IMG/VR virus record: IMGVR_UViG_3300013126_000076
Coordinates: 1 to 42,150 of that record
DNA: 42,150 nt
Origin: a virus
Direction: 5' to 3' (one strand)
The notes below the pieces were generated by a model. That model searched no databases. It had not been told where the DNA came from and was given only the letters and a program-made list of their open reading frames with translations. A program made the position numbers and the translations under genes. This document shows positions 1,033 through 42,150 of the stretch, in pieces (position 1 is the first letter of the stretch; every line of letters begins with the position of its first letter).

Positions 1033-2793
1033 ATGGCTGAAATTCCCGCTGCATTATTGACAAAATTGGCTCCGGAAATGAATCTTTCCCAGCTTAATAA
1101 AATTTTGTCTATTCCTGAGTTGGACGATCTGTCTCAACAACTTTCACAGCTTAATCCGGATCAAATATTCAGTTCAATGGATTTTTCCGGAAACATAAAT
1201 GATTTGTTTAGCCAAGTCACAAATTTTCAAAACAATCTGGGATTGTATCTTCCCATATCTGATTTTTTACCACAATTACCTTCTCCTCAAATTTTGGACC
1301 AAACCATAGCAAATGTAACTCAAGGGTTAAACATAACCAATCAGCTGCAAGGTTTGGTTCAATCCTCACTTGGAAACAATCTGCAAATTCCGAATTTTGC
1401 CGGAGGAGAGGTTGATATCGGAAGTATTTTTTCAAATACATTTTCATCTTTTTCCAATACAAATGCAAATGCATTTGATTTCGCCAAACAACAAGTCACA
1501 AACAATCTGCAAGGAATACAAAATGTAAGCAATGTAAGTTCTCTTTTAAATTCCATACGAACAAGCGTTCCATCCAATTTGTCACCAAAAACTGTCCGGG
1601 ACCTTGCCACAAATCCTCAAACATTTAATAATTTCATACAAAATGGAGCAAGCACCGCCGGATCCAGTTTAAACAGTCAGGTAAAACAAAATGCACAAAG
1701 CTATCAAAAAAGTTTCACTGGTGGAGACAATACACAAGTCAAAGCAGGTCCGGTCACACCAAATTCAGTATCTCCAAATGATTTTAGAATTAATGCCGTG
1801 GTGACAACTTATAGTGCGGAAGAAAGAATAGGAAAAGGCGGGGACAAGTGGTCCCGTGCAAAAGTAAGTTCCACATCCAAAGATTATCAACCCAATCTTA
1901 TTGAAGGTGTTAGTTGTGCAGTAGATCCAAGCCAGATTCCTTATGGAAGCAAAATAGTTTTTGATCGACCCGAAATAGGCACTCGTGTTGCCATGGACAC
2001 CGGCGAAGCTGTTTATCTTCAGACTGCCGCCATACAACGCGGAATCAATCCGGATAAACCACAGGCAGGAGCACAATCACCATATCCCCCCGGAACGGCT
2101 TTTGCCAAAACGGACCAACAGGCAAGATCAGGAGGAAGAGGAAGCAAAACAACTGGAACTTTAAATCTTACAAATTCACAAGGACAAGTAGTAGGCACAT
2201 ACCAATTTGTAAACGGAGGTGCAGGACGGGGAAACATTCCTTTTGGATCATATACGGTTTCAAATTATCAAACAGCCCAAACACGTGCCCGGTTGGGGAG
2301 AAGTCAGAGAGGCATTTTGGCTGGAGCCGACACATTTGATTTGAATAATGTTTATGATCCGGCAATAGGTGACACTCGAAGTGGTCTTTTGATACATAGG
2401 GCCAGAAATGCTACAGAAGGATGTATTGGTATTCAGGGTGGAGATGCAGCTTGGTCTGATTTTCGTGACAAAATGAAAAGATTATTGGATGAAAATGGAG
2501 GCAAATATACCCTAACATTGGGTCCAGATCCGAATGAAAAACAACAGGATGAAAAAACCCTTACGGTGGATATATATTTTGATACGGAGCAATCAAGATT
2601 GAATTTTGAAAAAAATGTACTTTCAGGGGGAGGAACACAAGGTGCCACTGTACAACCACCCAAAAGCGGGGTTTATTCCCAACAGGTGGAATTTCCGTCC
2701 GGAAGAAAAATTCAGGCTTATTATCCAAGCGGATACAAGCAACTAAAAACACGTTCTGCAGACGATCTTTTAGCAGCGGCAGGAAACGCATAA
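1033..2793 (+). CDS. Baseplate-associated murein protein: 3D domain split by an L,D-transpeptidase-like domain
   Basis: 586 residues. Residues 1-250 are Gln/Asn/Ser-rich and low in complexity. Residues 253-328 match the first part of a 3D (double-psi barrel) domain, with VDPSQIPYG (Asp298) and AMDTGEAV (Asp322). The third hallmark aspartate appears only at TVDIYF (Asp513), after about 190 residues. The stretch between (about 370-495) looks like an L,D-transpeptidase/DUF2778-type domain, with GLLIHRARNATEGCIGI giving His455 and Cys464. The 3D protein at 7840-8319 has the same three aspartates without the insertion. The gene abuts the gp5-like spike gene (one base between), so a tail-tip peptidoglycan-processing role during DNA entry is likely. 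Activity is inferred. Confidence 0.8.
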   Translation: MAEIPAALLTKLAPEMNLSQLNKILSIPELDDLSQQLSQLNPDQIFSSMDFSGNINDLFSQVTNFQNNLGLYLPISDFLPQLPSPQILDQTIANVTQGLNITNQLQGLVQSSLGNNLQIPNFAGGEVDIGSIFSNTFSSFSNTNANAFDFAKQQVTNNLQGIQNVSNVSSLLNSIRTSVPSNLSPKTVRDLATNPQTFNNFIQNGASTAGSSLNSQVKQNAQSYQKSFTGGDNTQVKAGPVTPNSVSPNDFRINAVVTTYSAEERIGKGGDKWSRAKVSSTSKDYQPNLIEGVSCAVDPSQIPYGSKIVFDRPEIGTRVAMDTGEAVYLQTAAIQRGINPDKPQAGAQSPYPPGTAFAKTDQQARSGGRGSKTTGTLNLTNSQGQVVGTYQFVNGGAGRGNIPFGSYTVSNYQTAQTRARLGRSQRGILAGADTFDLNNVYDPAIGDTRSGLLIHRARNATEGCIGIQGGDAAWSDFRDKMKRLLDENGGKYTLTLGPDPNEKQQDEKTLTVDIYFDTEQSRLNFEKNVLSGGGTQGATVQPPKSGVYSQQVEFPSGRKIQAYYPSGYKQLKTRSADDLLAAAGNA

Positions 2794-2794
2794 C

Positions 2795-5119
2795 ATGAAA
2801 AGATATGATGGACATTATTTGGGAATAGTAGTTCAAAACAACGATCCAGAACAACGTGGTCGTGTCAAAGTGTTTGTACCCCACGTCACACCCACAGTTT
2901 ACAACAAGTGGAATGAAGTTCAGGTTGATAAAGAATTTAACTTTATAGGTCAAAATCTTAACAGCAGCATCAATGACATATTAGAGGATCTTAAAAAAAT
3001 ATTGCCTTGGGCGGACTGTGCCATGCCTCTTTTCGGCGGGGCTGCCAGCGGAAGATATAATGCCACAGAAAAATTTGGATCCATTAGTGACAGTTCATTG
3101 ATCGACACCTGCAAACCACAAGAAAATTATGAAACCACCGCCTTCAGTCAAAATACTGATGGTATCGGTGAAAAACCGGGAAATGTTTACGAGCGGGGTG
3201 CCGTTCCGTTAAGTGACGCATTCAATTCAGCTCCTGCCAACAATGTGGCTCATGTCAATCCAAATGCTTACGGATATGTTCCGGGAGGTTATAGTAATCG
3301 CGCCAAGGGTGTCTTTTGTGTTCCTAATGTGGGAGCACATCTTTGGGTTTTCTTTTATGATGGAAATCCCATGCGTCCTGTTTATTGGGCAACCAGTTTT
3401 GGTCAAACTGCTTGGAATGGAATTTTTCTGGATGATTATGGTGTGGCTGAAGATTATCCGGGTGCTTATGAAAATTTTGATAAAAATGACACCAATCTTA
3501 ATGTTCAACAAGTGGATGCTGAAACATACAGGAACAAAACTGTATTATCTCAAAAAGGTGGGGTAATTGAATTTGTAAACACAGATCTTAAAGAGGTTCT
3601 TAAACTCACACATTATTCCGGTTCATTTTTGGAATTTAACAACGCCACCACGAGCCGGTTGTCCGTAAAGAATGATCAACAACTTGTTTTGGCGGACAAA
3701 TTTACAACAGTAAAAGGTAATAATAGCCTGTATGTTGGAGGTGATTTGGATATAGTGGTAAAAGGAAATTATTATTTTAAGGTGGGTGAACAGGATCCTC
3801 AATATCAGCAGCAATGGAAAACATTGATGGATCCTATTGCGGATCTTAAACAATTGTTTGAAATAGACCGGACCAAGAAAAAAGATGGTGATCCAAACCG
3901 AGTCAGCAGTACCAATCAAAAACAAAAAGGAAAGCCCGGACCTTGCCCTGTTTGTTCCAAAGACCGGAAATACTATGCAGTAAACAACAAATTCAATCAG
4001 GTCATAATTCCGGTTGTGACATTCAATAACAACGGCGTGGACGGATATCAAACGGTTGACCCACAAGGAAAACAATCGGCCGCGCAATTAATAGCATTTC
4101 CTCCCCCGGCACAATGTCCGGTCTGTAAAGGTCAACAAATTAGCCCCAGCAGCATGGACGGTAAATGGGAAGAAAATCCAGAAAAGAAAAAGTTAGAGCA
4201 ATTATACAAGGAAAAAATTGTTGAACTGGCAAAAATAGAGGAAAATATGGGTGTGGGCGGAAGTCTTGTCACGGAAATACCCAAACACAAATTCGACATG
4301 ATTGGTCAAGTCATGAATGATTTTGGAAGTATTCGTATTGATACTGAAGGTAAGATTTACAATTATAAGGTCCAGATAGGAGAAAAGGGTGTTTATGAAA
4401 ATCAAAAACCCAGTCCTCTTATTGAACCTGTGCACGTGGATGATCTTCCCGGGGGAAACTACACGGTAAATGCCTGTAATCGGTATACCCTTCAGGTTGG
4501 GGCGGGTGGAATTAATATAAAAACATTGGGTCCTATTGAAATGAGTGGAACCATAACCAGCATGGCAGGTCAGCAGGTTAACATAGGCGCACAATATGAA
4601 TTGAATATTGATGGCGGTAGTCGCACCGTCATCACCAGTGATATTCTTGTTTTGCGTCAACGCAACTATGAACAGGTCATGGTGGATTCAAGTTTAGGGG
4701 TAAGCCGAAATCTTGTGGTTGGCGGTGGAGCGCACATTGAAGGAGAACTAACGGTAAATCACATTACTGCCCCGGTTGAGATACAAGAAACCGAGAAAAG
4801 CTTTGTTTACGGTCAAACCAATACAATTGATGCAAAAATTATTGGTTATGTTCAGCCCGGGGCCACTATTTGTGGAAATTGGGGCATAGTATGGAGCAAA
4901 ACACCTTGTAATGACATATCCCAACCGGATTGTTTATTCACATATAGCCATAGTCATTTGTTCAAAAACCTTCCCCTTAATCTTCTTCCGGAAAACAAAG
5001 ATGTTCGAAATGTTGGTCAGGCTTGCAACAATACGGATCGAGTGGTTGCAGAACCTCAAAACATGGCTTATAACATCAGAGGTAGCAATCCTCCCAACGA
5101 TCCTATCGTAGGGGATTAA
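2795..5119 (+). CDS. 5: gp5-like baseplate hub / tail spike protein
   Basis: 774 residues. The N-terminus (YLGIVVQNNDPEQRGRVKV) is the OB-fold start typical of T4 gp5/VgrG-type hub proteins; residues about 160-210 carry the aromatic-rich second part (GAHLWVFFYDGNPMRPVYW). Residues about 540-660 are repetitive short strands suggesting the triple beta-helix needle. The C-terminal tip has YSHSHLFKNLPL with His719 and His721, like metal-binding spike tips. No lysozyme domain is visible between OB fold and helix, unlike T4 gp5. Instead there is an insert with two CPVC motifs (Cys384/387 and Cys441/444), likely one zinc ribbon. The neighbouring upstream gene may supply the wall-cutting function. 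It acts at the tail tip in the virion. Confidence 0.88.
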   Translation: MKRYDGHYLGIVVQNNDPEQRGRVKVFVPHVTPTVYNKWNEVQVDKEFNFIGQNLNSSINDILEDLKKILPWADCAMPLFGGAASGRYNATEKFGSISDSSLIDTCKPQENYETTAFSQNTDGIGEKPGNVYERGAVPLSDAFNSAPANNVAHVNPNAYGYVPGGYSNRAKGVFCVPNVGAHLWVFFYDGNPMRPVYWATSFGQTAWNGIFLDDYGVAEDYPGAYENFDKNDTNLNVQQVDAETYRNKTVLSQKGGVIEFVNTDLKEVLKLTHYSGSFLEFNNATTSRLSVKNDQQLVLADKFTTVKGNNSLYVGGDLDIVVKGNYYFKVGEQDPQYQQQWKTLMDPIADLKQLFEIDRTKKKDGDPNRVSSTNQKQKGKPGPCPVCSKDRKYYAVNNKFNQVIIPVVTFNNNGVDGYQTVDPQGKQSAAQLIAFPPPAQCPVCKGQQISPSSMDGKWEENPEKKKLEQLYKEKIVELAKIEENMGVGGSLVTEIPKHKFDMIGQVMNDFGSIRIDTEGKIYNYKVQIGEKGVYENQKPSPLIEPVHVDDLPGGNYTVNACNRYTLQVGAGGINIKTLGPIEMSGTITSMAGQQVNIGAQYELNIDGGSRTVITSDILVLRQRNYEQVMVDSSLGVSRNLVVGGGAHIEGELTVNHITAPVEIQETEKSFVYGQTNTIDAKIIGYVQPGATICGNWGIVWSKTPCNDISQPDCLFTYSHSHLFKNLPLNLLPENKDVRNVGQACNNTDRVVAEPQNMAYNIRGSNPPNDPIVGD

Positions 5120-5949: not shown

Positions 5950-7104
5950 ATGGCTGCTGAAATCAAAAAGATCATATTCCGTCAGGGTACGGAAGCCGAA
6001 CGTAAAAATATTACACTGGAACCGGGTGAACCGGGATATTGTACGGACAGCAACCGTTTATATGTGGGAACGGGTGGATTGGCAGGCATTCCAGTAGGAA
6101 CCAAGAATCTTGGATTTGCCACATTTGCAGGAAATGACACCAATTTGAATACCAGTTTGGCTGCTGCAAGTGGTGATTTTGTTTTTGATACAGCCAGTAA
6201 TCTGACCTATATGCTGACAGGAACAGATTTTGCAAAGGTAAGCGCTTTTGCTCCATTTGGTAGCCAATTCACAATTGATAATAATACACTGATTCAAGTT
6301 TCCAATGTTGTTCGTGTGGCAGATAACAGTTTGTTTGCCACTAAACTTGCCAGTGCTGCAGTAGGAGCCGGACTGGAACGGATAGGAACCAATACGATCT
6401 TAAAAACAAAGTTGGGCAGCAGCCTGACTTATGATGGCAGTCAAGGCATGATTGTTGCAAACAATAGCGTGACAAATGCCATGCTTGCCAACGCACCTGC
6501 CAACACGATAAAAGGTCGCTTAAACACTTCCGGACAAATACAAGATCTTACTCCTTCAGATCTTCAGGTTCTTCTTGCTGGTTTGGTGACCACAAATCCG
6601 ATTGGAACGGTGATTGATTGGGCCGGATCTGGCACACCTCCTGCAACTTATCTGGAATGCGACGGTTCACCTGTTTCCCGTACAACCTATGCAGAACTTT
6701 TCACAGTTTTGGGAACCACATGGGGTGCTGGGGACGGAAGCACGACATTCAATCTTCCGGATCTTCGCAGACGGGTGACCATGGGTGCAGGCGGAACAGG
6801 AACCGCCACCATAGCAAATGCAGTGGGAAGCACGGGCGGTGAAGAAAATCACGTGCTGACAGAATCAGAAGGTAAGTGTGAATTTGATGTTACGGCAGAA
6901 TTTCGTCAACCCGGTTCGCTTAATCCAAATGGAATTGGTTATGTGGGAGGATTGACCATTCAAAATTCAAACGGAAATTATTCATACACCTATAGTCAAG
7001 GCACAGTGGATGCAACTGGTACCGTAGGATCTGGTGCGGCTGACGGTCACAATACAATTCAGCCCAGCGCAGTTGTTCGCAAGCTTATCAAAGCATCATC
7101 ATGA
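5950..7104 (+). CDS. Tail fibre with C-terminal phage collar domain
   Basis: 384 residues. The N-terminal 50 residues (FRQGTEAERKNITLEPGEPG, then NRLYVGTG) form the short head-binding motif seen at the start of many phage fibre and tropism proteins. The middle is Ala/Asn/Thr-rich shaft. Residues about 216-280 carry a phage tail-collar domain (PIGTVIDWAG, YLECDGSPVSRTTYAELF, FNLPDLRRRV), as in T4 gp12-type short fibres. The extreme C-terminus (GHNTIQPSAVVRKLIK) is the usual collar-fibre ending. It is likely a receptor-binding protein on the baseplate. It overlaps the next gene by ATGA. Confidence 0.88.
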   Translation: MAAEIKKIIFRQGTEAERKNITLEPGEPGYCTDSNRLYVGTGGLAGIPVGTKNLGFATFAGNDTNLNTSLAAASGDFVFDTASNLTYMLTGTDFAKVSAFAPFGSQFTIDNNTLIQVSNVVRVADNSLFATKLASAAVGAGLERIGTNTILKTKLGSSLTYDGSQGMIVANNSVTNAMLANAPANTIKGRLNTSGQIQDLTPSDLQVLLAGLVTTNPIGTVIDWAGSGTPPATYLECDGSPVSRTTYAELFTVLGTTWGAGDGSTTFNLPDLRRRVTMGAGGTGTATIANAVGSTGGEENHVLTESEGKCEFDVTAEFRQPGSLNPNGIGYVGGLTIQNSNGNYSYTYSQGTVDATGTVGSGAADGHNTIQPSAVVRKLIKASS

Positions 7105-7355
7105 CGACAGGTTTTGACAAGATTGTTAAAAAACTCACTGAAGATTTTAACATCAGTCCTCAAGCCAAGGTTCCCAAAACTTTTCAGGGAACAAGCATTG
7201 ATTGGGGCAAAACAGCAACACATCCAAGCGGATTCAAAGGGGACACAAGCAATCCGGGCAGCATGCAGATTTTGTTTGCAATTCCTGCAAAAAAGAAAAA
7301 GAAATCAGCGAATGTTCTTAAAAAACGTGTGGCTGCCAATCGTGTTCGTCGCTAG
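7101..7355 (+). CDS. Small protein with lysine-rich tail
   Basis: 84 residues, unrecognised. The N-terminus (MTTGFDKIVKKLTEDF) is an amphipathic helix like those of several late proteins in this window. The C-terminus is strongly basic, with AKKKKKS followed by Arg/Lys to the end. The start overlaps the fibre gene stop (ATGA), so translation is coupled. The last 51 bases overlap the SleB-type gene on the other strand. The architecture resembles the 78-residue protein at 35618-35854. A minor nucleic-acid-binding virion component is a guess. Confidence 0.7.
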   Translation: MTTGFDKIVKKLTEDFNISPQAKVPKTFQGTSIDWGKTATHPSGFKGDTSNPGSMQILFAIPAKKKKKSANVLKKRVAANRVRR

Positions 7356-13790: not shown

Positions 13791-14165
13791 TCAGGAAGGT
13801 TTGACAGGCCAAACAATCAACCGAGGATCGCTTGCATAAGTCTGGGGAATGTCCCGAAGATTCTGACGATAGGTCACCCATTGTGCATTATTAGCCAGAT
13901 CCACATCCCGGAATTGTGTCCAATCACTTTCAGATAATAGACCATTACGCTTGGTTTTAACATCTGCCCAATAAGCAGCCAGACGGGTCGGATCTTGGGT
14001 AAGTTGCACAACTTGGGCAGTTCCAGCTGCAACCTGTTGATTCACATATTGTTCCCAAGTAATTTGGCCCCCACCAAAAGGATTAAAAGGTTGATCTTTG
14101 CGCATGCGGCAAATCACCACATCACCTGTTTCATAATATGTTCCACAATCAATGTAAATTGTCAT
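13791..14165 (-). CDS. Tail fibre assembly-like protein
   Basis: 124 residues. The C-terminal half (LLSESDWTQFRDVDL, WVTYRQNLRDIPQTY) matches the conserved sDWtq...WxxYRqxLRDip motif of tail fibre assembly chaperones and related fibre-tail proteins. Its place between two propeller fibre genes supports a role in folding or attaching them. It starts six bases after an AATAAATA box on the minus strand. Confidence 0.75.
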   Translation of the reverse strand: MTIYIDCGTYYETGDVVICRMRKDQPFNPFGGGQITWEQYVNQQVAAGTAQVVQLTQDPTRLAAYWADVKTKRNGLLSESDWTQFRDVDLANNAQWVTYRQNLRDIPQTYASDPRLIVWPVKPS

Positions 14166-14171
14166 ATATTA

Positions 14172-14179
14172 TATTTATT
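14172..14179 (-). promoter_or_regulatory. Late-promoter-like box (AATAAATA)
   Basis: On the minus strand AATAAATA ends six bases before the ATG at 14165 and overlaps the stop codon of propeller paralogue A. It would allow the assembly gene and the downstream fibres to be transcribed separately. Confidence 0.5.
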
Positions 14180-15536
14180 AACTTTGTTTATTAAACATTG
14201 GATTGGTGCAAACATTTATGTTCCAATTATTGTTTAACCGCATATCCATAACACCTATACCTGTGGTATCGTAGGGAACAAAAAATGCCTTGCCGTTTGG
14301 ATGTATCACACCTCCTTGGGCTTGAAGGGTGGGAAATCCTATGCTGGGTATGAGTTTGGTGGTTGTGTTGGTTTCTGGATCGATCACAACAACAAAAGAG
14401 TCCTGATTAGGAACAGTATATATTTTTCCGTTTGGAGCGAGAAATGCAGTTTGAGCGTTTACAGAACTACCTGCGGCACTTGTCCATGCTGGAATTGTGG
14501 TGGTACTATTATCTTGCGGATTTATAATCCCTATTCTGGAAGCAGGAACTGCACTACCCGTATTATGAGGAATACAAAATATTCTGCCATCTATGGAAAG
14601 TACTCCTCCTTCAAAATCCATAACAGATCCAAATGTGCCGAACGTATATCCCCCCACGAAACCATAAGTTGAAGAAGTTCCAGCATCTGGATCAATGACT
14701 GTAAAAATAGTTCCATAATAAGGAATGGTATAAATTTTTCCATTTGGTCCTAGTTGCAATCCGTTAAAATTTGTATCAACAACACTTGAAAAACTTCCTG
14801 TTGTTTCTGTTACAGGATCAAAAAATATTACTCCTGTAATTGTTGAATTTTTTTTAGGTTCATAAAATTTACCATTTCGAGCTAACATTGTAAATCCAAA
14901 TGTCCAAGGAGAGGTATTAATTGTTTGATTTACAGTATTCGTGGTTGGATCCAAAACAATTAATCGGGTTGTTGCACCCTGCATATACATTTTTCCGTTG
15001 GGTGCAAGCATAGTTTTTATAGATCCTGTAGAAGAACCTGCTCCATGGAAAAAAGTAGTTATAATTCTTTCACTATTCGGATCAATCACATACCCCTGTG
15101 TGGTTTGTGTGGTGTCCCACGGAAACATATATATCTTTCCGTTTGGGTGCACAAGCAATGAATTGCTATAACCTCTTGTGGTTCCAAATACCCGGAAATT
15201 GACTGCACTGGCTGAGATGTTGCGATTGCTATAAGCCACCGCACTTAGATAGGATTGCAATGTACCCCAGTTTGATATGTTACTTCCATTAGTCCAATCA
15301 GCTGCCTGAAGATCGGTGAGACTTGGTACAGCTGAAAGTGTGACCACTCCGGTACTGGCATTTGAAGCTATTCTTGTTAAAGGACCGCTTCTGTCGAAAT
15401 TTAAATTGGAAACACCTGCTGTAACCGGACCTGCACTGAATGTTGGCTGGGCTGTGCTTCCTCGGCTTACAAATACAGTTCCCGGTGCGTTAAACCCGGA
15501 CAAACCAAGTATTCCCAGTATGCTTGCACGACTCAC
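14178..15536 (-). CDS. Seven-bladed beta-propeller tail fibre, paralogue A
   Basis: 452 residues. It has the shared N-terminal anchor (SNASTGVVTLSAVPSL, NISNWGTLQSYLSAVA), seven propeller repeats (HPNGKIYMFP to HPNGKAFFVP) and the C-terminal NNNWNINVCTNPMFNK. The fifth repeat is the longest and most diverged. The start is GTG, nine bases after the stop of the 61-residue gene, in one transcription unit with it. Confidence 0.8.
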   Translation of the reverse strand: MSRASILGILGLSGFNAPGTVFVSRGSTAQPTFSAGPVTAGVSNLNFDRSGPLTRIASNASTGVVTLSAVPSLTDLQAADWTNGSNISNWGTLQSYLSAVAYSNRNISASAVNFRVFGTTRGYSNSLLVHPNGKIYMFPWDTTQTTQGYVIDPNSERIITTFFHGAGSSTGSIKTMLAPNGKMYMQGATTRLIVLDPTTNTVNQTINTSPWTFGFTMLARNGKFYEPKKNSTITGVIFFDPVTETTGSFSSVVDTNFNGLQLGPNGKIYTIPYYGTIFTVIDPDAGTSSTYGFVGGYTFGTFGSVMDFEGGVLSIDGRIFCIPHNTGSAVPASRIGIINPQDNSTTTIPAWTSAAGSSVNAQTAFLAPNGKIYTVPNQDSFVVVIDPETNTTTKLIPSIGFPTLQAQGGVIHPNGKAFFVPYDTTGIGVMDMRLNNNWNINVCTNPMFNKQS

Positions 15537-15545
15537 GGCAAAAAG

Positions 15546-15731
15546 TTATTTTTTCTCTTCCACACTGACAATACCGCGCAGAAAGAGTGTTCCAGAAGCA
15601 GGATCGATCCATTGTGCTTCTTTCATGATATTCTTGCCCACCTGACGTTCCACAATAACAGGTTTGGTCATTTGACCAGAAATGGGACTTACTTGGGGTT
15701 TGGGTTGCACAAATGGTACGTTTTTGATCAT
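15546..15731 (-). CDS. Small hypothetical protein heading the fibre operon
   Basis: 61 residues, unrecognised. Proline-rich N-terminus followed by a strand-like stretch (AQWIDPASGTLFLRGIVSV). It starts five bases after a perfect TATAAATA and directly precedes the fibre cluster, so a small virion or fibre-adaptor role is plausible but unproven. Confidence 0.65.
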   Translation of the reverse strand: MIKNVPFVQPKPQVSPISGQMTKPVIVERQVGKNIMKEAQWIDPASGTLFLRGIVSVEEKK

Positions 15732-15736
15732 ATTAT

Positions 15737-15744
15737 TATTTATA
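15737..15744 (-). promoter_or_regulatory. Late-promoter-like box (TATAAATA)
   Basis: A perfect T4 late consensus on the minus strand, five bases before the ATG at 15731. It would drive the 61-residue gene and the propeller fibre cluster. Confidence 0.65.
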
Positions 15745-15745
15745 A

Positions 15746-16021
15746 TTATTTTGCTTTTTTATACTGCATTTCACAAACTTTAAACACCTTTGAGGGAAGA
15801 TTTTGTATAAAATCCATTATTTTACAATTAATTCCCATATCAATCTTTTCAAAAGGAGCGTTTCGTTTAATCATATTCGGTAAAGAAAGGAAATCATAAT
15901 CCTTTTCATTTTTGTTTATAAGTACCCAAAATTCCCCTCCATATTTGCCTTTGGTTATGGCAAAAAAGTCGCCCCGCCTGTATGTTTTAAGCTTGATCAG
16001 CTTGAATATTTTTGACAGCAT
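15746..16021 (-). CDS. Hypothetical basic protein
   Basis: 91 residues from the ATG at 16021, unrecognised. A basic N-terminus (LIKLKTYRRGDFFAITKGKY) is followed by strand-like segments. It overlaps the end of the epimerase gene by 35 bases, so the start could lie further downstream. Confidence 0.55.
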   Translation of the reverse strand: MLSKIFKLIKLKTYRRGDFFAITKGKYGGEFWVLINKNEKDYDFLSLPNMIKRNAPFEKIDMGINCKIMDFIQNLPSKVFKVCEMQYKKAK

Positions 16022-16877
16022 TGGCAAACCCCCGGATGTTTTCATTAAGATCATCCATCACATATTTTGGTTTGTATCCCAGACTTTCAATTTTCATGGG
16101 AGAAAGCATACAGTTACTTCGGTTTACCCGAAAATTCATTTCATCATATTCCAATATTTTCCAGTTTTTGTTTTCCAGACCATGTTCCTTTAGAAGCTGA
16201 ATCACATCCTGTCCGCGAATCACACCATTGTTGACCACATTGTAAACGCCATAATCAGGCTTTTTATCCAGATTGATGAAAAAATCCGTGAATTCATTCA
16301 GAAGATTCAGGCTGGTGATGCTGTTTTTAAGACTGATCAGATTGTCATATTTTAAAAGTTTATAAAGATAATTTTTGGTTGTGTAACTTTCATCGTAAGG
16401 AATGCGAATACGAAATGTATAACAGGGATAATCCTCTAGCTTTTCCTCACAAAGATGTTTGCACTTGCTGTAAAAGCTGCTGCGATTGCTGAATATTCCG
16501 AAATTAGGCATGTCATATTCGCTGTAAATTTTGTCCTGATGGTCATAAATGCAACCACTACCCACGTTGATAAAAGGTACTTCCAGTTCTTTACAAACTT
16601 TAGCAATACGGACCGGAACCAAAACGTTCCAAAAATAACAATCTTGCCAATTGCTTTCGCAAGCTTCCACGTTTGGAACGCCAGTGTAACCTGCCGCATT
16701 GATCAAATAATCTGGTTTTCCTTTTTCCAGATATTCTCGCAGTTTTTCCGGTTGAGTATAATCAAGAAATTCTCGCCGGACCATGTCCACAGTTTTCACA
16801 TGTCCCAAACTTTTAAGTTTGGCCGTCATGCTTTTTCCCACAAACCCTCCTCCGAGTATCAGCGCATTATTAATCAT
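15987..16877 (-). CDS. RmlD-like NAD(P)-dependent sugar-nucleotide reductase/epimerase
   Basis: 296 residues from the ATG at 16877. The N-terminal Rossmann motif GGGFVGKSM, then NAAGYTGVPNVEACE, the SGCIYD strand, and YSKCK (the catalytic Tyr-x3-Lys) identify an extended short-chain dehydrogenase of the RmlD/epimerase type. Such enzymes make activated deoxysugars. With the two glycosyltransferases elsewhere in the window it may feed modification of phage DNA, virion proteins or host surface glycans. The longer frame to 16937 is rejected because the dinucleotide-binding motif starts right after the chosen Met. Confidence 0.85.
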   Translation of the reverse strand: MINNALILGGGFVGKSMTAKLKSLGHVKTVDMVRREFLDYTQPEKLREYLEKGKPDYLINAAGYTGVPNVEACESNWQDCYFWNVLVPVRIAKVCKELEVPFINVGSGCIYDHQDKIYSEYDMPNFGIFSNRSSFYSKCKHLCEEKLEDYPCYTFRIRIPYDESYTTKNYLYKLLKYDNLISLKNSITSLNLLNEFTDFFINLDKKPDYGVYNVVNNGVIRGQDVIQLLKEHGLENKNWKILEYDEMNFRVNRSNCMLSPMKIESLGYKPKYVMDDLNENIRGFANAVKNIQADQA

Positions 16878-31249: not shown

Positions 31250-32259
31250 CAGGCACACCTTTTGTAAAGATTGCTGCAATAATCCAAGGTTTCTTTTTTA
31301 TGTTCCACTTCCATCCCGTTAATAAATTCTTCCAGCATCTGTTCAAACCCTATATTGGTTTCGTTTGATTCAGATTCACTTTTTAATTCAAAATCAGTCT
31401 GAGTAAGAAGGGTAAATGGTGTGAATTCTTCCTGTATTTGACTGGAAAAGCTCGTATATTTTTCTGTGGTATCAGACACATCAAAGATAACTCGCACAAT
31501 AGAATTTTTTCTTTTGGGTGTTTCTTTTTTGGAATATCGAACTATTTCATGCCGAGGTGAAAACTCATTCTCAAACTTTTTTAAATCCATGTTTTCCAAA
31601 TCAAGAATATATGCGTATTTGTTGTTATTAATATCTGCAAAAGTATGCTGGAATGGATTTCCCAAATATCCGGCTGTTAGTTTATTCATTTTACGGACAT
31701 CACTGATATGAAAATGACCGGCCAGAATAAACCGTTCCTTTTCACTAAATTTTTCTAAATCAGAACCTTCTTCGCAAAATTTGCTGTTGTTCATCTTGAA
31801 ATGTTTGAATTCTGCATGAGTTAGTACAACATCCGCTTCATAATTCTTTTCATCTGATGAGTCTGTCCAAGGAACCATGTTGATTTGTTTGTCCCCATAT
31901 TTGAATGATGTTGTATTGTTCACAACACTCACATACGGATATCCCTGAAACACATGTAGAGAAGTTACATCATTCTTTTCTTTGAAATAAATGTCATGAT
32001 TACCCGTGATCAAATAAACTTTGAAATCGGAAAATACATCCAAGACTTTTCTTGCAATATCCAGAGTAGAAACATCAATTTGGTCCCGATCATGGAAATA
32101 ATCCCCAAGACAAATGATTGATTCCGATCCTTCTTGAACGGCAATTTTCTTAGCCCATTCAGCCCAATCCAAAACAAGCTGATGCCATTTAGGACTATTC
32201 TGATGAACGCCTAGATGAAGATCGGCAAAAAGAAGTGATTTTTTGGTCAGTGTTTTCAA
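31249..32259 (-). CDS. 47: Recombination nuclease subunit gp47 (SbcD/Mre11-like)
   Basis: 336 residues. Calcineurin-type nuclease motifs in order: LLFADLHLG, ICLGDYFHDRD, LITGNHDIY, VVLTHAEF and ILAGHFHISD. These bind the two metal ions. The C-terminal part would contact gp46. The start is TTG whose last two bases begin the TGA stop of the sigma gene, the same TTGA coupling as between uvsY and uvsW. Confidence 0.92.
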   Translation of the reverse strand: MKTLTKKSLLFADLHLGVHQNSPKWHQLVLDWAEWAKKIAVQEGSESIICLGDYFHDRDQIDVSTLDIARKVLDVFSDFKVYLITGNHDIYFKEKNDVTSLHVFQGYPYVSVVNNTTSFKYGDKQINMVPWTDSSDEKNYEADVVLTHAEFKHFKMNNSKFCEEGSDLEKFSEKERFILAGHFHISDVRKMNKLTAGYLGNPFQHTFADINNNKYAYILDLENMDLKKFENEFSPRHEIVRYSKKETPKRKNSIVRVIFDVSDTTEKYTSFSSQIQEEFTPFTLLTQTDFELKSESESNETNIGFEQMLEEFINGMEVEHKKETLDYCSNLYKRCA

Positions 32260-33797
32260 TTGTCATCATTGTTGTCATTATCAATATAAACGTGACCACC
32301 CGTGTTTTCCGTTCCTTCTATCATTTTGTCCATGTACATTTTTTCCTTGTATTGTTCCAAGGTTTCATGATGCTTTTTTTCTTTCTTGATCCTGTTGATA
32401 AAAGCATGAAACGCAATCGTGGTGAAATAACTGAAGGGGCTGTATCCAGAATCCAGATTGAATTTTTTATGCTTGAGGGCCGTCATCATTTTGACAATGG
32501 CATCTCCCACCATTTCGTCCCGATAACTATTTCCCGTAACATAAATTTTCCCATTTCTTCTGCAAACAAAAGTTCCATACTCGGTGGTGGGGCACCAAAC
32601 AGTTCCATTGTAGGGATGGGTTGGTAGATTTGGTTTGCCCGCCTTTCCTATTGTTTTTGTTTTACCAACAGAGGTTACACCTGCTCCGGGTCTTCCTCCG
32701 TGCATATCTATGTTTTCCACTCGACATGTTAATTTTGGTTTGTCGTAAATATTTGAAACAAAATATTCACTGTAACCAAATCTGGAACGATGTTTTCTTA
32801 GAATTTTGGAGGCGGTGATTCCTGCCAATGTGCAAACAATCAAAAACATGTCCATGTGCTTTTCACACTTTTGAACATAAGTTCTTAAATTTTGATTGTC
32901 ATCTTTATGTCTTGTGCTGCCATCACCATCCACCATGGTTTGAATCAACAACAGTCTTTGTTTTTGGGTCAAATTTAATATAAATTCCATGCTCATGATT
33001 CGTTTTGGTGCCAAACGAATTATCTCATTTGCATATTTTTTATTAAAATAAAATCCCAAAATCTCGGGATTGGACCAATTATAAACTTTATATTTTATTC
33101 CCAATTTATCCATACAGTTTTTTATTCTATCCGCTTTTGGTCCAATCTTTTGAAAGATAGTTATGCTGTGGGTTTTTTTACCCAGTGCAAAATGTCCTTC
33201 AGTTATGGCCCATCCCATCAATTCGACAAAAGCATTGCTATAAATTGCTTTGTTTGGTTTAACATGTTTGCCCATTAAAACCAAATGGTTATTGGTTTTC
33301 AACAATTCAACAGGCTGTAGCCCATTTTCAATTGTAACAAATTTATGATTTGGCGTGACCAAAGCATCAAGTGCTTTCAAAGTCAATCGATGCATTTTTC
33401 CTTTATATTTTCCAACATACAAATCCAGTATTTTGGACCATACAAATCTTTTTTCATCGATATTGTATGACAAAATAATGTCCTTTTTTGTAAGTTCAGA
33501 ATATTTTAGCCATCCCCGTTGAGTTAATGCCTCTGTTTGTGTGTCCACACAATAATTTATGAAGTTGGGGGCATAACTAAGACCATTTGCAATCTTGCTG
33601 ACACTCTCGCCCAGATAAGCGGTAAGTGTTCCGGATGCATAAAAACCCCGAATGCCATCCTCGAATTCTTTTGAATTTACATAATGAGTTTTTTCTTTTT
33701 TAACTTTTGCGGCTATTTTTTTAATATCAACATTGTCATCAGAACAATCTGATAATTGTTGTTGATTCTTGGGTTTGCGTCCTCTTTTTTTCTTCAT
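32256..33797 (-). CDS. 55: gp55-like late sigma factor precursor with intein
   Basis: 513 residues as encoded; 172 after removal of a 341-residue intein (T4 gp55 is 185). The N-extein (1-82) starts with a basic stretch. The C-extein (424-513) begins SYRDEMVGDAI and continues with SPFSYFTTIAFHAFINRIKK, the conserved core of T4-type late sigma factors. The two exteins join as NFINY-SYRDEM, exactly the expected uninterrupted sequence. The mature protein would direct host RNA polymerase to the NNTAAATA boxes, with the clamp as activator. The start overlaps the uvsW stop (ATGA). Confidence 0.9.
   Translation of the reverse strand: MKKKRGRKPKNQQQLSDCSDDNVDIKKIAAKVKKEKTHYVNSKEFEDGIRGFYASGTLTAYLGESVSKIANGLSYAPNFINYCVDTQTEALTQRGWLKYSELTKKDIILSYNIDEKRFVWSKILDLYVGKYKGKMHRLTLKALDALVTPNHKFVTIENGLQPVELLKTNNHLVLMGKHVKPNKAIYSNAFVELMGWAITEGHFALGKKTHSITIFQKIGPKADRIKNCMDKLGIKYKVYNWSNPEILGFYFNKKYANEIIRLAPKRIMSMEFILNLTQKQRLLLIQTMVDGDGSTRHKDDNQNLRTYVQKCEKHMDMFLIVCTLAGITASKILRKHRSRFGYSEYFVSNIYDKPKLTCRVENIDMHGGRPGAGVTSVGKTKTIGKAGKPNLPTHPYNGTVWCPTTEYGTFVCRRNGKIYVTGNSYRDEMVGDAIVKMMTALKHKKFNLDSGYSPFSYFTTIAFHAFINRIKKEKKHHETLEQYKEKMYMDKMIEGTENTGGHVYIDNDNNDDN
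32529..33551 (-). other. Intein with LAGLIDADG-type endonuclease domain
   Basis: Residues 83-423 of the sigma factor precursor. It starts with Cys83 (CVDTQTEALTQRGWLKYSEL), has the block B TPNH at 148-151, and ends VCRRNGKIYVTGN followed by Ser424 as the +1 nucleophile. The penultimate residue is Gly422, not the usual His. The central part has two endonuclease-like motifs, LMGWAITEGHF and MVDGDGSTRH. All parts needed for splicing and homing seem intact apart from the missing penultimate His, which some active inteins also lack. Confidence 0.9.
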
Positions 33798-36808: not shown

Positions 36809-37231
36809 ATGTCAAGATTTCATAAGTTGTTGGAACAAGAATATTTTAAATTGGATGTTAAACCCGCAGAACTTTCCGAAGTTCAACAAAATGTAGTGGA
36901 TAAAATGGTTTCTTCTGGTAAAGCCAAATATGAAGGTCTTAAAAAGCTAAATGCAGTTGTCAGCTATGATGTGGATGGTAAAAAGGGTAAATTCAAAATT
37001 GATCCAAAAGGAAATGTTCACCCTTGTTCTGAATCCGAAGAAGAGGAAGATCAAGAGTCCGCAACAGCAGGTCTTGATCCTAAAGCCATGAGTCAATCTG
37101 ATATCGGAGTGCTAAGAACATTAATGAGTACTCAACAAAAAAGAACTTTGGACACGGTAACTGCCGGTGTGGTAAATGCATTTTCAAAATATGCAAAAAA
37201 CCTGACAAGCAAACTGGGAACAATTAAATGA
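36809..37231 (+). CDS. Hypothetical late protein
   Basis: 140 residues. The N-terminus MSRFHKLLEQE resembles the short amphipathic start of other late proteins here. Then comes a small strand-rich part (YDVDGKKGKFKIDPKGNV), an acidic patch (SESEEEEDQESA) and a helical C-terminus with basic residues. Likely virion-associated from context; unrecognised. It overlaps the next gene by ATGA. Confidence 0.7.
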   Translation: MSRFHKLLEQEYFKLDVKPAELSEVQQNVVDKMVSSGKAKYEGLKKLNAVVSYDVDGKKGKFKIDPKGNVHPCSESEEEEDQESATAGLDPKAMSQSDIGVLRTLMSTQQKRTLDTVTAGVVNAFSKYAKNLTSKLGTIK

Positions 37232-37548
37232 AATTCGATGATATTTTAAAAAACAAATACGGTTTGTTGAACGAACAACCACCCGCAACTTTGGATGCAG
37301 CTGAAGATGTGACCGAACCAGAAGCTGCGGCCACAGAAGAACCAACTGAAGATGCTCTTAAACTTGATACACAAGGTGTTCAATATCTTGTTGATTTGAT
37401 TCGCAAAGCTCTTCTTATCGATAAGCTGGATGACCGAGAAAAAGCAGATCTTATTAATTTAAAAATTGATGCCAACAATGCTTTTAATAATTTGGAAAAT
37501 AAAATCCTACCAATTCTTAATAAATATATTCCAGAGACTACCTCTTGA
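37228..37548 (+). CDS. Hypothetical late protein with LLNE-type N-terminus
   Basis: 106 residues. MKFDDILKNKYGLLNE-Q is a helix ending in a prohead-protease-like site, followed by a Glu/Ala/Thr-rich disordered stretch (about 20-45) and a helical C-terminal domain. Unrecognised. It is translationally coupled to the preceding gene. Confidence 0.7.
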   Translation: MKFDDILKNKYGLLNEQPPATLDAAEDVTEPEAAATEEPTEDALKLDTQGVQYLVDLIRKALLIDKLDDREKADLINLKIDANNAFNNLENKILPILNKYIPETTS

Positions 37549-38879: not shown

Positions 38880-39328
38880 CAGAACTTCAATCTGTAATTA
38901 GAAAAGAAGAAACCAGACCGCAAGGTAACTGGAAGACCAAATTTGAAATTGTAGAAATTATCAAAAGTAGCGCGGAAAATTGCCATAAATTTCTTCAATG
39001 GGGATTGAAGACAAATCGAATCAAAATGAAAGCAGGAACCAGTCTTACCACAACTCGGGTTTTAACAAACAAAACATTTTACAATCCAATCAAAAAAGAT
39101 TGGAAGCGTCTTTATTTTCAATACGCAAAAAGCAGGGAAAAACGTCCCAAAGGAAATGGATGGAAAACTTTCACACAACTTTGCCGGGAATTGAGACTGA
39201 GTGAAACACTGGGACGCAAAGCAGTGTCCCTTTTGATTAAGAGAGACAAATTGGAGATTTTTAAAGGTGGAATTGTGGATGACAGCAGTCGTGTAACTGC
39301 CATCAAGTTTTATCGTATCAAAGGATAG
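38864..39328 (+). CDS. Two-repeat winged-helix-like protein, paralogue
   Basis: 154 residues with two units (4-73 and 80-151) of the same type as the preceding gene: TRPQGNW and KRPKGNGW turns, then helix pairs such as RLSETLGRKAVSLLIKRDKL. The two genes overlap by 16 bases and probably arose by duplication; their products may work as a pair. A transcription regulator or DNA-binding accessory is likely. Confidence 0.72.
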   Translation: MSKWVTELQSVIRKEETRPQGNWKTKFEIVEIIKSSAENCHKFLQWGLKTNRIKMKAGTSLTTTRVLTNKTFYNPIKKDWKRLYFQYAKSREKRPKGNGWKTFTQLCRELRLSETLGRKAVSLLIKRDKLEIFKGGIVDDSSRVTAIKFYRIKG

Positions 39329-39542
39329 TTTCTAGTACCCGCAAAACAACCTTCTTGCGGATTTCTGGACCTTGAATACCTTTTAGAAAAGTAAGAAATT
39401 CGTTTAAAACCTTCTCAGGATCCTGACGAACAACGGTGGGTATTTCTGCGGCAGGATTCAAAGCGCTGTTGGCTTGAGGACCAAGACCTAAATTTTCACA
39501 ATAAAGGTTGCCCATTTTGCGCATATCGTCACTTAATCCCAT
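39318..39542 (-). CDS. Small hypothetical late protein
   Basis: 74 residues, unrecognised; an N-terminal Met/Gly/Asn-rich half and a C-terminal helical half (EKVLNEFLTFLKGI, then KVVLRVLETIL). It begins five bases after an AATAAATA box and overlaps the end of the convergent winged-helix gene by 11 bases. A small virion or assembly protein is possible. Confidence 0.65.
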   Translation of the reverse strand: MGLSDDMRKMGNLYCENLGLGPQANSALNPAAEIPTVVRQDPEKVLNEFLTFLKGIQGPEIRKKVVLRVLETIL

Positions 39543-39555
39543 GTAAATATTTATT
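39542..39555. promoter_or_regulatory. Overlapping divergent late boxes
   Basis: TGTAAATATTTATT reads TGTAAATA on the plus strand (39542-39549, 11 bases before the ATG at 39561). It reads AATAAATA on the minus strand (39555-39548, five bases before the ATG at 39542). The TAAATATTTA core and both spacings equal those at 10564-10577. Confidence 0.55.
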
Positions 39556-39560
39556 AATTT

Positions 39561-40730
39561 ATGATCAATTTTAAAAATATAAAAACTATTTTAAATGAAA
39601 AGTTGGTTTTGAAAAAAAGACCCGCTCCTGAAGGTAAAACCATTTTTATTGCCAGCAGTGACCTATCTGATCCAAAACAGGCTGGTAATGAGACATTTAC
39701 AAATAAAGATTTCATTAAAACCCTTGGATTCAAATGGAATGCGCTGGAACGCCGATGGGAAACAGGCGCTTTGAACGAAGCCGAAGCATCAGATTTTGTA
39801 AAGAATACAATCAAAAAACTGAATGAATTCAACAAAGAAGAACTTACCGACACAACTGTTTCTGAATTTGGTGGAGAAAATCTGGAAGATCGTTTCAAGA
39901 AATTTTTAGAGCTTTTAAAAAGCGGTGTGGTGAATGTCAAAAACAGCAAGGAATATCAAGAGTATGTCCAGTTCCAAAAACGTTTTCGTAACTATTCACT
40001 TTATAATCAGATTTTAATATTTTTACAAAGAAAGAATGCTTCCAAGGTGGCAGGAAAAAACACATGGTTTCGTCAGTTGGGCAGAAAAATAAAACCCGGG
40101 GAACGGGCCATCATGATTTATGCCCCTATTATGGTCAAACAAAAAGACGGAGACATAAGTGTGGGGGAAGATCCTACTGCTGGTATTAAAGAAAAAGTAA
40201 TGCGATTTCGTCTTGTGCCTGTTTTTGATATTAGCCAAACCGAACCTATTCCCGGTCGGGAAAAAGAAATTCCCGAGGAAATGCAATGGTTTGATGACAC
40301 GCCTTTGGATGAACGTATGCGCACCATTTTTGATGCCGTGAAACAATATGCAGAAGAAAACAACATTAAAGTGGACATCAAGGCAGAAGATGAACTGGGT
40401 GGTGCCCGAGGTGTCAGTAAGGGTGGGACCATCGAGCTTGTTAGCGAAAATTTGAGCACACTAATCCATGAAGTTGCTCATGAGATGTTGCATTGGAAAG
40501 ATCGGGAAAACGTTCCAGAACGAAAAATACGGGAACTTCAGGCAGAAGGTGTGGCAAATTTTGTTCTGAGTGAGTATGATATTCCGGCACCTCATACCGA
40601 GAAGTATCTGGCTCTTTGGCAGATTGACCCAGAACATGTTACCAGCAACTTTAATATCATAAAAGACACCTCAAAAACCCTTATAGAATATATAAATAAT
40701 CATGTGGAACAAAAAGGTGCAAATCTATGA
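39561..40730 (+). CDS. ArdC-like antirestriction metalloprotease, possibly capsid-packaged
   Basis: 389 residues in four parts. Residues 1-13 (MINFKNIKTILNE) look like a T4-type capsid-targeting peptide. Residues 27-88 resemble a DUF5710-like module (TLGFKWNALERRWETG). Residues about 108-225 match the ArdC N-terminal ssDNA-binding domain (NYSLYNQILIFLQ, GKNTWFRQLGRKIKPGERAI). The C-terminal zincin has LIHEVAHEMLH (His303, Glu304, His307) and a likely third ligand in ELQAEGVANFV (Glu325 or Glu329). Plasmid ArdC protects incoming DNA from restriction. Here a late box and a packaging-type N-terminus suggest injection with the DNA. Confidence 0.82.
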   Translation: MINFKNIKTILNEKLVLKKRPAPEGKTIFIASSDLSDPKQAGNETFTNKDFIKTLGFKWNALERRWETGALNEAEASDFVKNTIKKLNEFNKEELTDTTVSEFGGENLEDRFKKFLELLKSGVVNVKNSKEYQEYVQFQKRFRNYSLYNQILIFLQRKNASKVAGKNTWFRQLGRKIKPGERAIMIYAPIMVKQKDGDISVGEDPTAGIKEKVMRFRLVPVFDISQTEPIPGREKEIPEEMQWFDDTPLDERMRTIFDAVKQYAEENNIKVDIKAEDELGGARGVSKGGTIELVSENLSTLIHEVAHEMLHWKDRENVPERKIRELQAEGVANFVLSEYDIPAPHTEKYLALWQIDPEHVTSNFNIIKDTSKTLIEYINNHVEQKGANL

Positions 40731-41881
40731 AAAACATTAATGTAGAATATGATATGGATGAAAATGATCTGGATATCATTCTTCGGGATATTGTAAAAGA
40801 ACATAAAACAAAACCCAATCTAGCTTATATTTTTGAAAATTACAGCAACCTGCTTTCTGTGTTCAAACCCCATGTAATCAAAAAAGTTCTGGACGGTATT
40901 GAAGAAGATTACAAACATGCACCCAATGAAGGTGAGGAATCCGGAACAACTTTATCCGTGAGTCCAAAAGCTGCTCTGGCTAAAGCAAAAGAAGCAATAA
41001 AAAATTTAGAAAAAGATAATCAGCAGTTGGCAAAAATAATAGATGCCCAACCTGATTTGATTAAAGTGATGATTCGAACTAGAGATTTGTTTCCTTACAA
41101 ATTTCGGGGAGACAGTGAAGTGATACAATTTATTAAAAAAGCTATTGGTCCGGAAGCTTTTAAACTGGCATATCACGCCGAAAACCAAGCCAATCAATTT
41201 GAAGATGAACCGCACGATATTGAAAGTGATCCGGAAAGCATGAAAGAAGAAAGCAATTTTGCCCGGGCTTATGACAAGCTCATGGGTAATCTGAATGAAT
41301 CTCATGTTCCAGAAGGTGATGATGAAGGTCGCATGCTTGAATATCAGCTTCGTACCATCCGGGATGAAATTGATGAATTGCTTCCTCTTATCCAACCCAA
41401 CGATCAATTTGAAGGTTGGGTGCAAAGCAAGGTTACTTTGGCAAAAGATTATGTTTCGGCTGTTAAAGACTATCTGACACAACATCACGCTGAATATCAT
41501 AGCGATGATGATGGTGATCGGGGAAGTCATGATTTGAGTGATGATGCAGAGGCTTTGGCCAGTGCAGGTTACGGGACCGATGAAGATTATGGTTATTATG
41601 GTGGGGATGAAGATGGCGAAGAAGTAAAAGAAGGTGTAGTTATGGAAAAGAAAGGTGCGCGTTGCACCAAGGTAACCGGTCAAATGCAATCAACGCGTAG
41701 TGATAAAAAATACATGCGTTGTACACGGGTAGGAGGGAAGCTAAAGCGAGTGCATTATGGTGATCCTAAAAGAAGAATTAAAAAGTCTAATCCTAAAAAA
41801 CGTCGTTCATTTCGGGCACGTCATAAATGTTCCACTGCAAAACCCGGTACAGCCAAATACTTCAGTTGTAAAAATTGGTAA
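40727..41881 (+). CDS. Acidic-basic bipartite virion/DNA-associated protein
   Basis: 384 residues. Residues 1-260 are helical and acidic; residues about 255-305 are extremely acidic (YHSDDDGDRGSHD, DEDYGYYGGDEDGEE). After KEG near 306 the last 75 residues are strongly basic with Cys pairs, KKRRSFRARHKCSTAKPGTA and YFSCKNW. I recall similar Cys-containing basic tails in other large phages, from memory only. A DNA-condensing internal protein whose acidic part shields the tail before proteolysis is an inference. The start overlaps the ArdC-like stop (ATGA). Confidence 0.7.
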   Translation: MKNINVEYDMDENDLDIILRDIVKEHKTKPNLAYIFENYSNLLSVFKPHVIKKVLDGIEEDYKHAPNEGEESGTTLSVSPKAALAKAKEAIKNLEKDNQQLAKIIDAQPDLIKVMIRTRDLFPYKFRGDSEVIQFIKKAIGPEAFKLAYHAENQANQFEDEPHDIESDPESMKEESNFARAYDKLMGNLNESHVPEGDDEGRMLEYQLRTIRDEIDELLPLIQPNDQFEGWVQSKVTLAKDYVSAVKDYLTQHHAEYHSDDDGDRGSHDLSDDAEALASAGYGTDEDYGYYGGDEDGEEVKEGVVMEKKGARCTKVTGQMQSTRSDKKYMRCTRVGGKLKRVHYGDPKRRIKKSNPKKRRSFRARHKCSTAKPGTAKYFSCKNW

Positions 41882-41886
41882 CACAA

Positions 41887-42075
41887 ATGAACTTTAATGA
41901 TCTAGTAACTCAGCTTCTTGAAGAAGCCACCAAGAAAAAAGCCAAACACGATGCTTGTTATCACAAAGTAAAACGCCGATATAAAGTTTTTCCAAGTGCC
42001 TATGCTTCTGGGGCTATATCGGCATGCAGAAAACGCGGTGCTAAAAACTGGGGCAATAAAAGCAAAAAGAAATGA
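41887..42075 (+). CDS. Small basic protein of a widespread marine-phage type
   Basis: 62 residues from the ATG at 41887. The N-terminus MNFNDLVTQLLEE-A is the packaging-like peptide. The body CYHKVKRRYKVFPSAYASGA followed by CRKRGAKNWGNKSKKK belongs to a small basic protein type I recall from large phages and algal viruses. It may bind DNA inside the capsid. The stop overlaps the next start (ATGA). Confidence 0.72.
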   Translation: MNFNDLVTQLLEEATKKKAKHDACYHKVKRRYKVFPSAYASGAISACRKRGAKNWGNKSKKK

Positions 42076-42150
42076 CCCAAAACTTTGATAACTTGGTTGA
42101 TTCCCTGATCAACGAAGCCAAGTTTTCTCTTGAAAAGAAATACGGTCTTC
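42072..42150 (+). CDS. Late protein with packaging-like N-terminus, 3' end outside window
   Basis: Only 26 residues are visible: MTQNFDNLVDSLINE-A followed by KFSLEKKYG. The LINE-A site is an excellent match to the T4 prohead-protease consensus. It is coupled to the previous gene by ATGA. Confidence 0.65.
   Translation, partial: MTQNFDNLVDSLINEAKFSLEKKYGL

Follow-up and report, generated by a model that had tools for sequence, protein, structure and literature searches.

Phage T4 brings its own protection against restriction into the cell, as its internal proteins IPI-III are injected and inhibit type IV restriction (PMC12373910). In IPIII, ten residues are enough to target the head, mutation having assigned positions 4 and 7 of the leader to targeting and positions 8 and 10 to processing, and the prohead protease gp21 cuts after L/I-x-E (PMC9026906). 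The ArdC protein of plasmid R388 acts and is needed in the recipient cell; its supply in the donor did not help, and its protease active site is dispensable for antirestriction (PMC7213743). ArdC-N and a zincin are a common pair in polyvalent proteins, ArdC-N has been described as rare in those of the phage type, and delivery of ArdC-type proteins with DNA has already been discussed for plasmids (PMC5512222). A literature search of incomplete coverage found no report of a packaged ArdC or of capsid-targeting sequences in cyanophages. The gene described here appears to join these two systems in one reading frame, and a putative removable leader of T4 type on an ArdC suggests that the phage probably injects the protein along with its DNA, against host defences.

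The window, by which we mean the whole 42-kb stretch of DNA analysed and the entire database record, is a fragment of a T4-like phage with recognizable genes for gp43, gp41, UvsX, UvsY, UvsW, gp46, gp47, gp32, and a gp55-type late sigma factor (Table 1). Its polymerase and the capsid proteins of its lineage are only about 32% identical to those of cultured phages, so the lineage is an uncultured one. A 78.7-kb contig, G001, is collinear with the window (90% DNA identity over 89% of the window) and runs on leftwards into gp21, gp22, and gp23, from which it follows that the window merely ends before the head genes; gp21 is assigned to the lineage through this contig. The protease (S77) was found at an E value of 1.6e-29 in G001 and 8.5e-24 in a second contig, G009, with catalytic His85 and Ser140 conserved, and both contigs carry gp21 and gp23 together with a leader-bearing ArdC. 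Plausible cleavage sites (LTE, LNE, and INE) are present in gp22 and gp23 of G001, and an alignment of gp23 cleavage regions placed no LxE at the corresponding position of G009 gp23.

Table 1. Features of the ArdC locus, other leader-bearing genes of the window, and related cassettes (window positions unless a contig is named)
Feature	Coordinates	Strand	Remarks
ArdC-family protein, 389 aa	39561..40730	+	Leader, N-terminal module, ArdC-N ssDNA-binding domain, metalloprotease
Leader MINFKNIKTILNE, residues 1-13	39561..39599	+	Predicted capsid-targeting sequence; predicted gp21-type prohead protease cut after E13
N-terminal module, residues 14-100	39600..39860	+	In T4-type ArdCs only
ArdC-N (ssDNA-binding) domain, residues 113-222	39897..40226	+	Pfam
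HEVAH zinc-binding/catalytic motif, residues 303-307	40467..40481	+	
E329, predicted third metal ligand	40545..40547	+	Equals R388 ArdC E229 (PMC7213743)
Late-type promoter box TGTAAATA	39542..39549	+	11 nt before ardC ATG
Divergent late-type box AATAAATA	39548..39555	-	Overlaps ardC box; for 74-aa gene 39318-39542(-)
Next gene	40727..41881	+	Start overlaps ardC stop by 4 nt
62-aa basic protein	41887..42075	+	Leader MNFNDLVTQLLEE followed by A; candidate internal protein
Protein start	42072..42150	+	Leader MTQNFDNLVDSLINE followed by A; runs off window, complete in G001 75874-76146
106-aa protein	37228..37548	+	Leader MKFDDILKNKYGLLNE followed by Q
84-aa protein	7101..7355	+	Leader MTTGFDKIVKKLTE followed by D
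gp55-type late sigma factor (C-terminal part)	32256..33797	-	Consistent with T4-type late transcription
G002 cassette	L024:11021-13969, 13993-14802, 14807-16087		
G009 cassette	L097:3559-6504, 2766-3527, 2349-2759, 1088-2356	-	

A preliminary description, made from the letters of the window, had proposed an ArdC-type single-stranded DNA-binding domain joined to a HEVAH metalloprotease, and the coordinates and start codon of the open reading frame as well as both domains were borne out. The Pfam profile ArdcN matched at 24.7 bits against a cutoff of 22.6 (E value 3e-5), and PHROG 7245, annotated as an anti-restriction protein, matched at 6e-12. A profile search of the PDB matched R388 ArdC (6sna) at 1.5e-11 when the profile was built from 26 relatives; a shallower profile gave no match. 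An AlphaFold model from the deeper alignment had a mean pLDDT of 84 and a pTM of 0.74 (a run with seven sequences reached a pLDDT of 48 and was discarded), and Foldseek returned R388 ArdC as its sole significant structures (6i89, E value 9.5e-7; 6sna, 3.8e-6), with a weak match that reflects a distant likeness of fold to the Spartan protease. No match at an E value of ≤0.001 was obtained when viral models were searched with the same fold. By profile and fold match to R388 ArdC, the product belongs to the ArdC family. Relatives keep zinc ligands H303, H307, and E329, as well as catalytic E304 and Y349, with almost no change, so that the HExxH...E...Y metalloprotease looks intact from the sequence, and the catalytic residues are retained in every T4-type member that spans the domain.

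The likeness to R388/pSa ArdC (6i89, 6sna) thus extends over ArdC-N, the HExxH...E gluzincin domain, the tyrosine, and the overall fold, whereas the phage protein differs in being phage encoded and in having a late-type promoter, an extra module at residues 14 to 100, and a leader of 13 residues. The extra module had been called DUF5710-like, an assignment that we do not retain, as six family members gave no Pfam match to DUF5710 over these residues at E values up to 10. In the sense used for polyvalent proteins, the window's protein combines two known domains with one further module, and its clade D relatives reach about 430 to 990 aa. ArdC-like genes of Gordonia, Enterococcus, Listeria, and gut phages share ArdC-N and the metalloprotease at 26 to 29% identity; the short ArdCs of comparable IMG/VR phages lack a leader and lie on contigs without detected gp21, a comparison of N termini that covers the IMG/VR proteins.

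The leader itself keeps its position in close relatives, and F4, I7, L11, and E13 are invariant in a seven-sequence alignment reaching down to 44% identity; at residue 12, N, S, T, and G all occur. These four residues have the same character as the positions shown to matter in T4 IPIII, with three more residues between I7 and the predicted cut (LNE followed by K, after residue 13) than in IPIII; the spacer of IPI is also longer. Among the relatives, L041 has FGE as the aligned triplet but ILDE a few residues upstream, and L043 has LLNE. The earlier proposal of a start like the T4 capsid-targeting sequence stands for the spacing class, which the same regular expression captures in IPI-III, and for the invariant key residues, but not for close sequence similarity to MKTYQEFIAE. 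Beyond the leader, the likeness to IPI-III consists of aromatic and hydrophobic residues three apart, an [LI]xE end, and gp21 in the lineage, and the difference lies in the cargo, small injected inhibitors in T4 compared to a 376-residue DNA-binding metalloprotease whose packaging is only predicted. In the AlphaFold model, residues 1 to 10 fall below a pLDDT of 50 and lack secondary structure, the leader has a pLDDT of 38, and the first strand begins at residue 15, so that the fold is predicted to start right after the putative cut, with the leader separate from the folded domain. The low leader values may reflect how few aligned sequences cover it.

This model bears on a reading in which the N terminus would form an integral helix within a DUF5710-like module, the condition under which the preliminary description would have given up its proposal. 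The discarded shallow run did place a helix at residues 7 to 11, at very low confidence, but in the deeper model secondary structure starts only at residue 15, and DUF5710 was not matched; since the leader is predicted to be unstructured, we regard an integral helix as highly improbable.

Leaders of this kind are found on other proteins of the lineage. A motif based on the T4 leaders, [FY]xx(hydrophobic)...[LI]xE at the N terminus, recovers all three T4 internal proteins (IPI, IPII, and IPIII) and occurs at the N termini of 18 of 302 proteins of G001, G009, and G002, compared to 3.9 expected (p 1e-7), a value that is partly post hoc because the short motif was written down after these leaders had been seen. 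Enrichment was weaker in a later, fresh set of gp21-positive contigs (13/545 against 5.3 expected, p 0.003) and absent from control ArdC loci of phages without detected gp21 (8/1001 against 6.5) and from a second control (3/323 against 1.8). Motif-bearing proteins were also more often preceded by a late box (odds ratio 5.6, p 0.001).

The strict motif fails in the divergent clades C and D, where [LI]xE is still present in most members. More distant T4-type clades have a leader type of their own, common to unrelated proteins of the same clade. The ArdC leader of clade C, MRDVDTIILENLY, resembles MRDNDTIILENFY, MRDNDTILLESLY, and MRDNDTLILETLY of other proteins, with similarity scores of 55, 50, and 38 compared to 27 or less elsewhere. 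For MKKIKITKEQYNRIAGLLTE of clade D the counterpart is MKKLKITKEQYDRLVLTE, and for MSKFDDVLSRILDE of clade B there are several, MKFDDLYKSIINE among them. In clade A, to which the window belongs, the ArdC leader has weak sequence similarity to the other leaders of its genome. Judged from these sequences, leader type appears to follow phage lineage and not cargo, as a targeting tag should. In phages without detected gp21, short ArdCs have nothing ahead of the ArdC domain, the exception being L054, which has a long unrelated N terminus. A search for gp21 in clade C and D contigs, which are possibly incomplete, was negative, and one clade D contig gave a partial gp23 match. Conservation of a phi-x-E-x-L-x-L stretch extends to the interior of long clade D proteins, so structure may account for part of it. 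In L229-L233, ArdC lies at the C terminus of fusion proteins of about 430 to 990 aa. The point of fusion ahead of the ArdC-linked module reads L-N-E or L-S-E, where a prohead protease might cut internally.

The late-type box noted upstream of ardC was confirmed, with TATAAATA in 11 of 16 close relatives. Across the window, NATAAATA precedes 10 of 51 genes (0.6 expected) and TAAATA precedes 14 (1.2 expected); a late-type box also precedes gp21 in G001, and none was found within 40 nt of nine replication and recombination genes. This pattern fits late synthesis of ArdC. The products of most late phage genes are not packaged, so late timing, which had been offered as support for packaging, is a weak argument when taken alone, and late expression by itself does not show packaging.

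Taken together, the data favor an explanation to which we assign a probability of about 0.55. An ArdC-family protein would be made late in infection by a T4-like phage, and its first 13 residues would act as a capsid-targeting sequence that takes it into the prohead core. There gp21 would cut after Leu-Asn-Glu, and mature ArdC, beginning at Lys14, would stay in the head with the DNA. At the next infection it would enter the cell with the genome, bind exposed, probably single-stranded, phage DNA, and, ahead of all phage gene expression, block type I restriction or nucleases of that kind. A further activity may come from the metalloprotease. We infer packaging, cleavage, injection, and target. 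Packaging, gp21 processing, and injection seem probable from the gp21 of the lineage, the predicted disorder of the leader, the motif enrichment, and the sharing of leaders, so that the earlier suggestion of a packaged ArdC withstood several tests it might have failed. By analogy with T4 IPI-III and R388 ArdC, the function would most likely be DNA protection on entry, and an antirestriction role at that moment is plausible, a proposal we make tentatively.

One alternative is that late ArdC works in the producing cell, binding single-stranded DNA in late replication or packaging or degrading host proteins, with residues 1 to 13 a flexible N terminus whose L-x-E is incidental or caps the first strand. 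Late expression does not imply packaging, and phi-x-E-x-L-x-L is conserved even where internal in clade D and is kept with F or V at its first position in L041 and L228. Such a role, however, leaves aside the covariation of leader types with phage lineage across unrelated proteins, the missing leaders of short ArdCs in phages without gp21, and the enrichment of the motif at N termini but not in controls, and we consider it unlikely. Somewhat less unlikely is an ArdC that is packaged and injected mainly for proteolysis, of a host defence or a DNA-bound protein, or for initial handling of the genome. The catalytic residues retained throughout the T4-type members, the leader-bearing SprT-like metalloproteases of sister phages, the distant likeness of the fold to Spartan, and the finding that R388 antirestriction did not need the protease site all suit such a role. 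Against it stands ArdC-N, since within the family this DNA-binding domain has the best support as an antirestriction element.

Such a leader is proof of prohead entry only, and neighbouring genes encode other leader proteins, so ArdC might instead be a prohead component for head maturation, either a second protease or a core protein. We consider this improbable, given that T4-like phages with gp21 but without detected ArdC exist (as fragments) and that the ArdC family is accessory elsewhere. The parts of the favored explanation are already known, and their combination is new, a variation on the T4 internal-protein strategy. If correct, it links the DNA-protecting ArdC of conjugation with the head-loading route of T4, places ArdC on hand when naked DNA enters without the need for later synthesis, allows the proteins that uncultured T4-like phages inject to be predicted from their leaders, and offers a direct test of ArdC action as a delivered protein rather than a gene. 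P1 DarA/DarB and polyvalent proteins are likewise predicted DNA-protecting proteins delivered with the genome, and sister phages of the window also encode an SNF2-type ATPase near ArdC; the proposed route here differs in its cleavable T4-type leader.

More speculatively, and at less than even odds, cleavable leaders, each specific to its lineage, may serve several uncultured T4-like lineages as a modular tag for packing a whole arsenal, ArdC, SprT-like proteases, an SNF2-type ATPase, a zeta-type kinase, and small basic proteins into the head. Were this so, such a multicomponent injected kit could be recognized in sequence data alone. Among the ArdC-bearing sister phages, SprT-like metalloproteases whose starts resemble leaders occur at L024:8934-9749 (MNLNALIHTVLAEN), L024:9739-10212 (MKFDDLYNKVSKN), and L096:13978-14739(-) (MTFTEFRILKEA). 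In the gp21-positive contig G026, a zeta-toxin-type kinase (L186:8668-9540(-); Pfam, 3e-7) starts with MQTFRQYITEKR, which is very like the T4 internal-protein leader MKTYQEFIAEA. G002 and G009 keep a cassette (Table 1) of a 981- to 982-aa SNF2-type ATPase, one or more small leader proteins, ArdC, and then a dUTPase-like gene (named by eye), an arrangement that recalls P1 DarB plus ArdC in a T4-like phage.

Some observations concern the late boxes and the surroundings of ardC. In the window, G001, G009, and G002 (L020-L023, L091-L097, and L024-L026), TAAATA boxes lie 5 to 12 nt from the start codon, most often 5 to 6 nt, whereas T4 late boxes cluster 20 to 29 nt upstream. A Shine-Dalgarno-like sequence is very rare in genes with such boxes (0/9, 1/20, 3/52, and 2/21), which, together with the spacing, points to late mRNAs with little or no leader. 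No more than 18 bp lie between the divergent 74-aa gene and ardC, their overlapping late-type boxes facing both ways (39542-39561). Downstream, the product of the next gene has an acidic body and a basic Cys-containing C terminus common to many marine phages. Two small basic Cys-containing modules recur in marine phages: that of the 62-aa protein is internal to P-RSM4 PRSM4_120, between gp16 and gp17 in a cyanophage, and the other, at about 41688-41881, is present in Roseobacter, Pelagibacter, and Flavobacterium phages.
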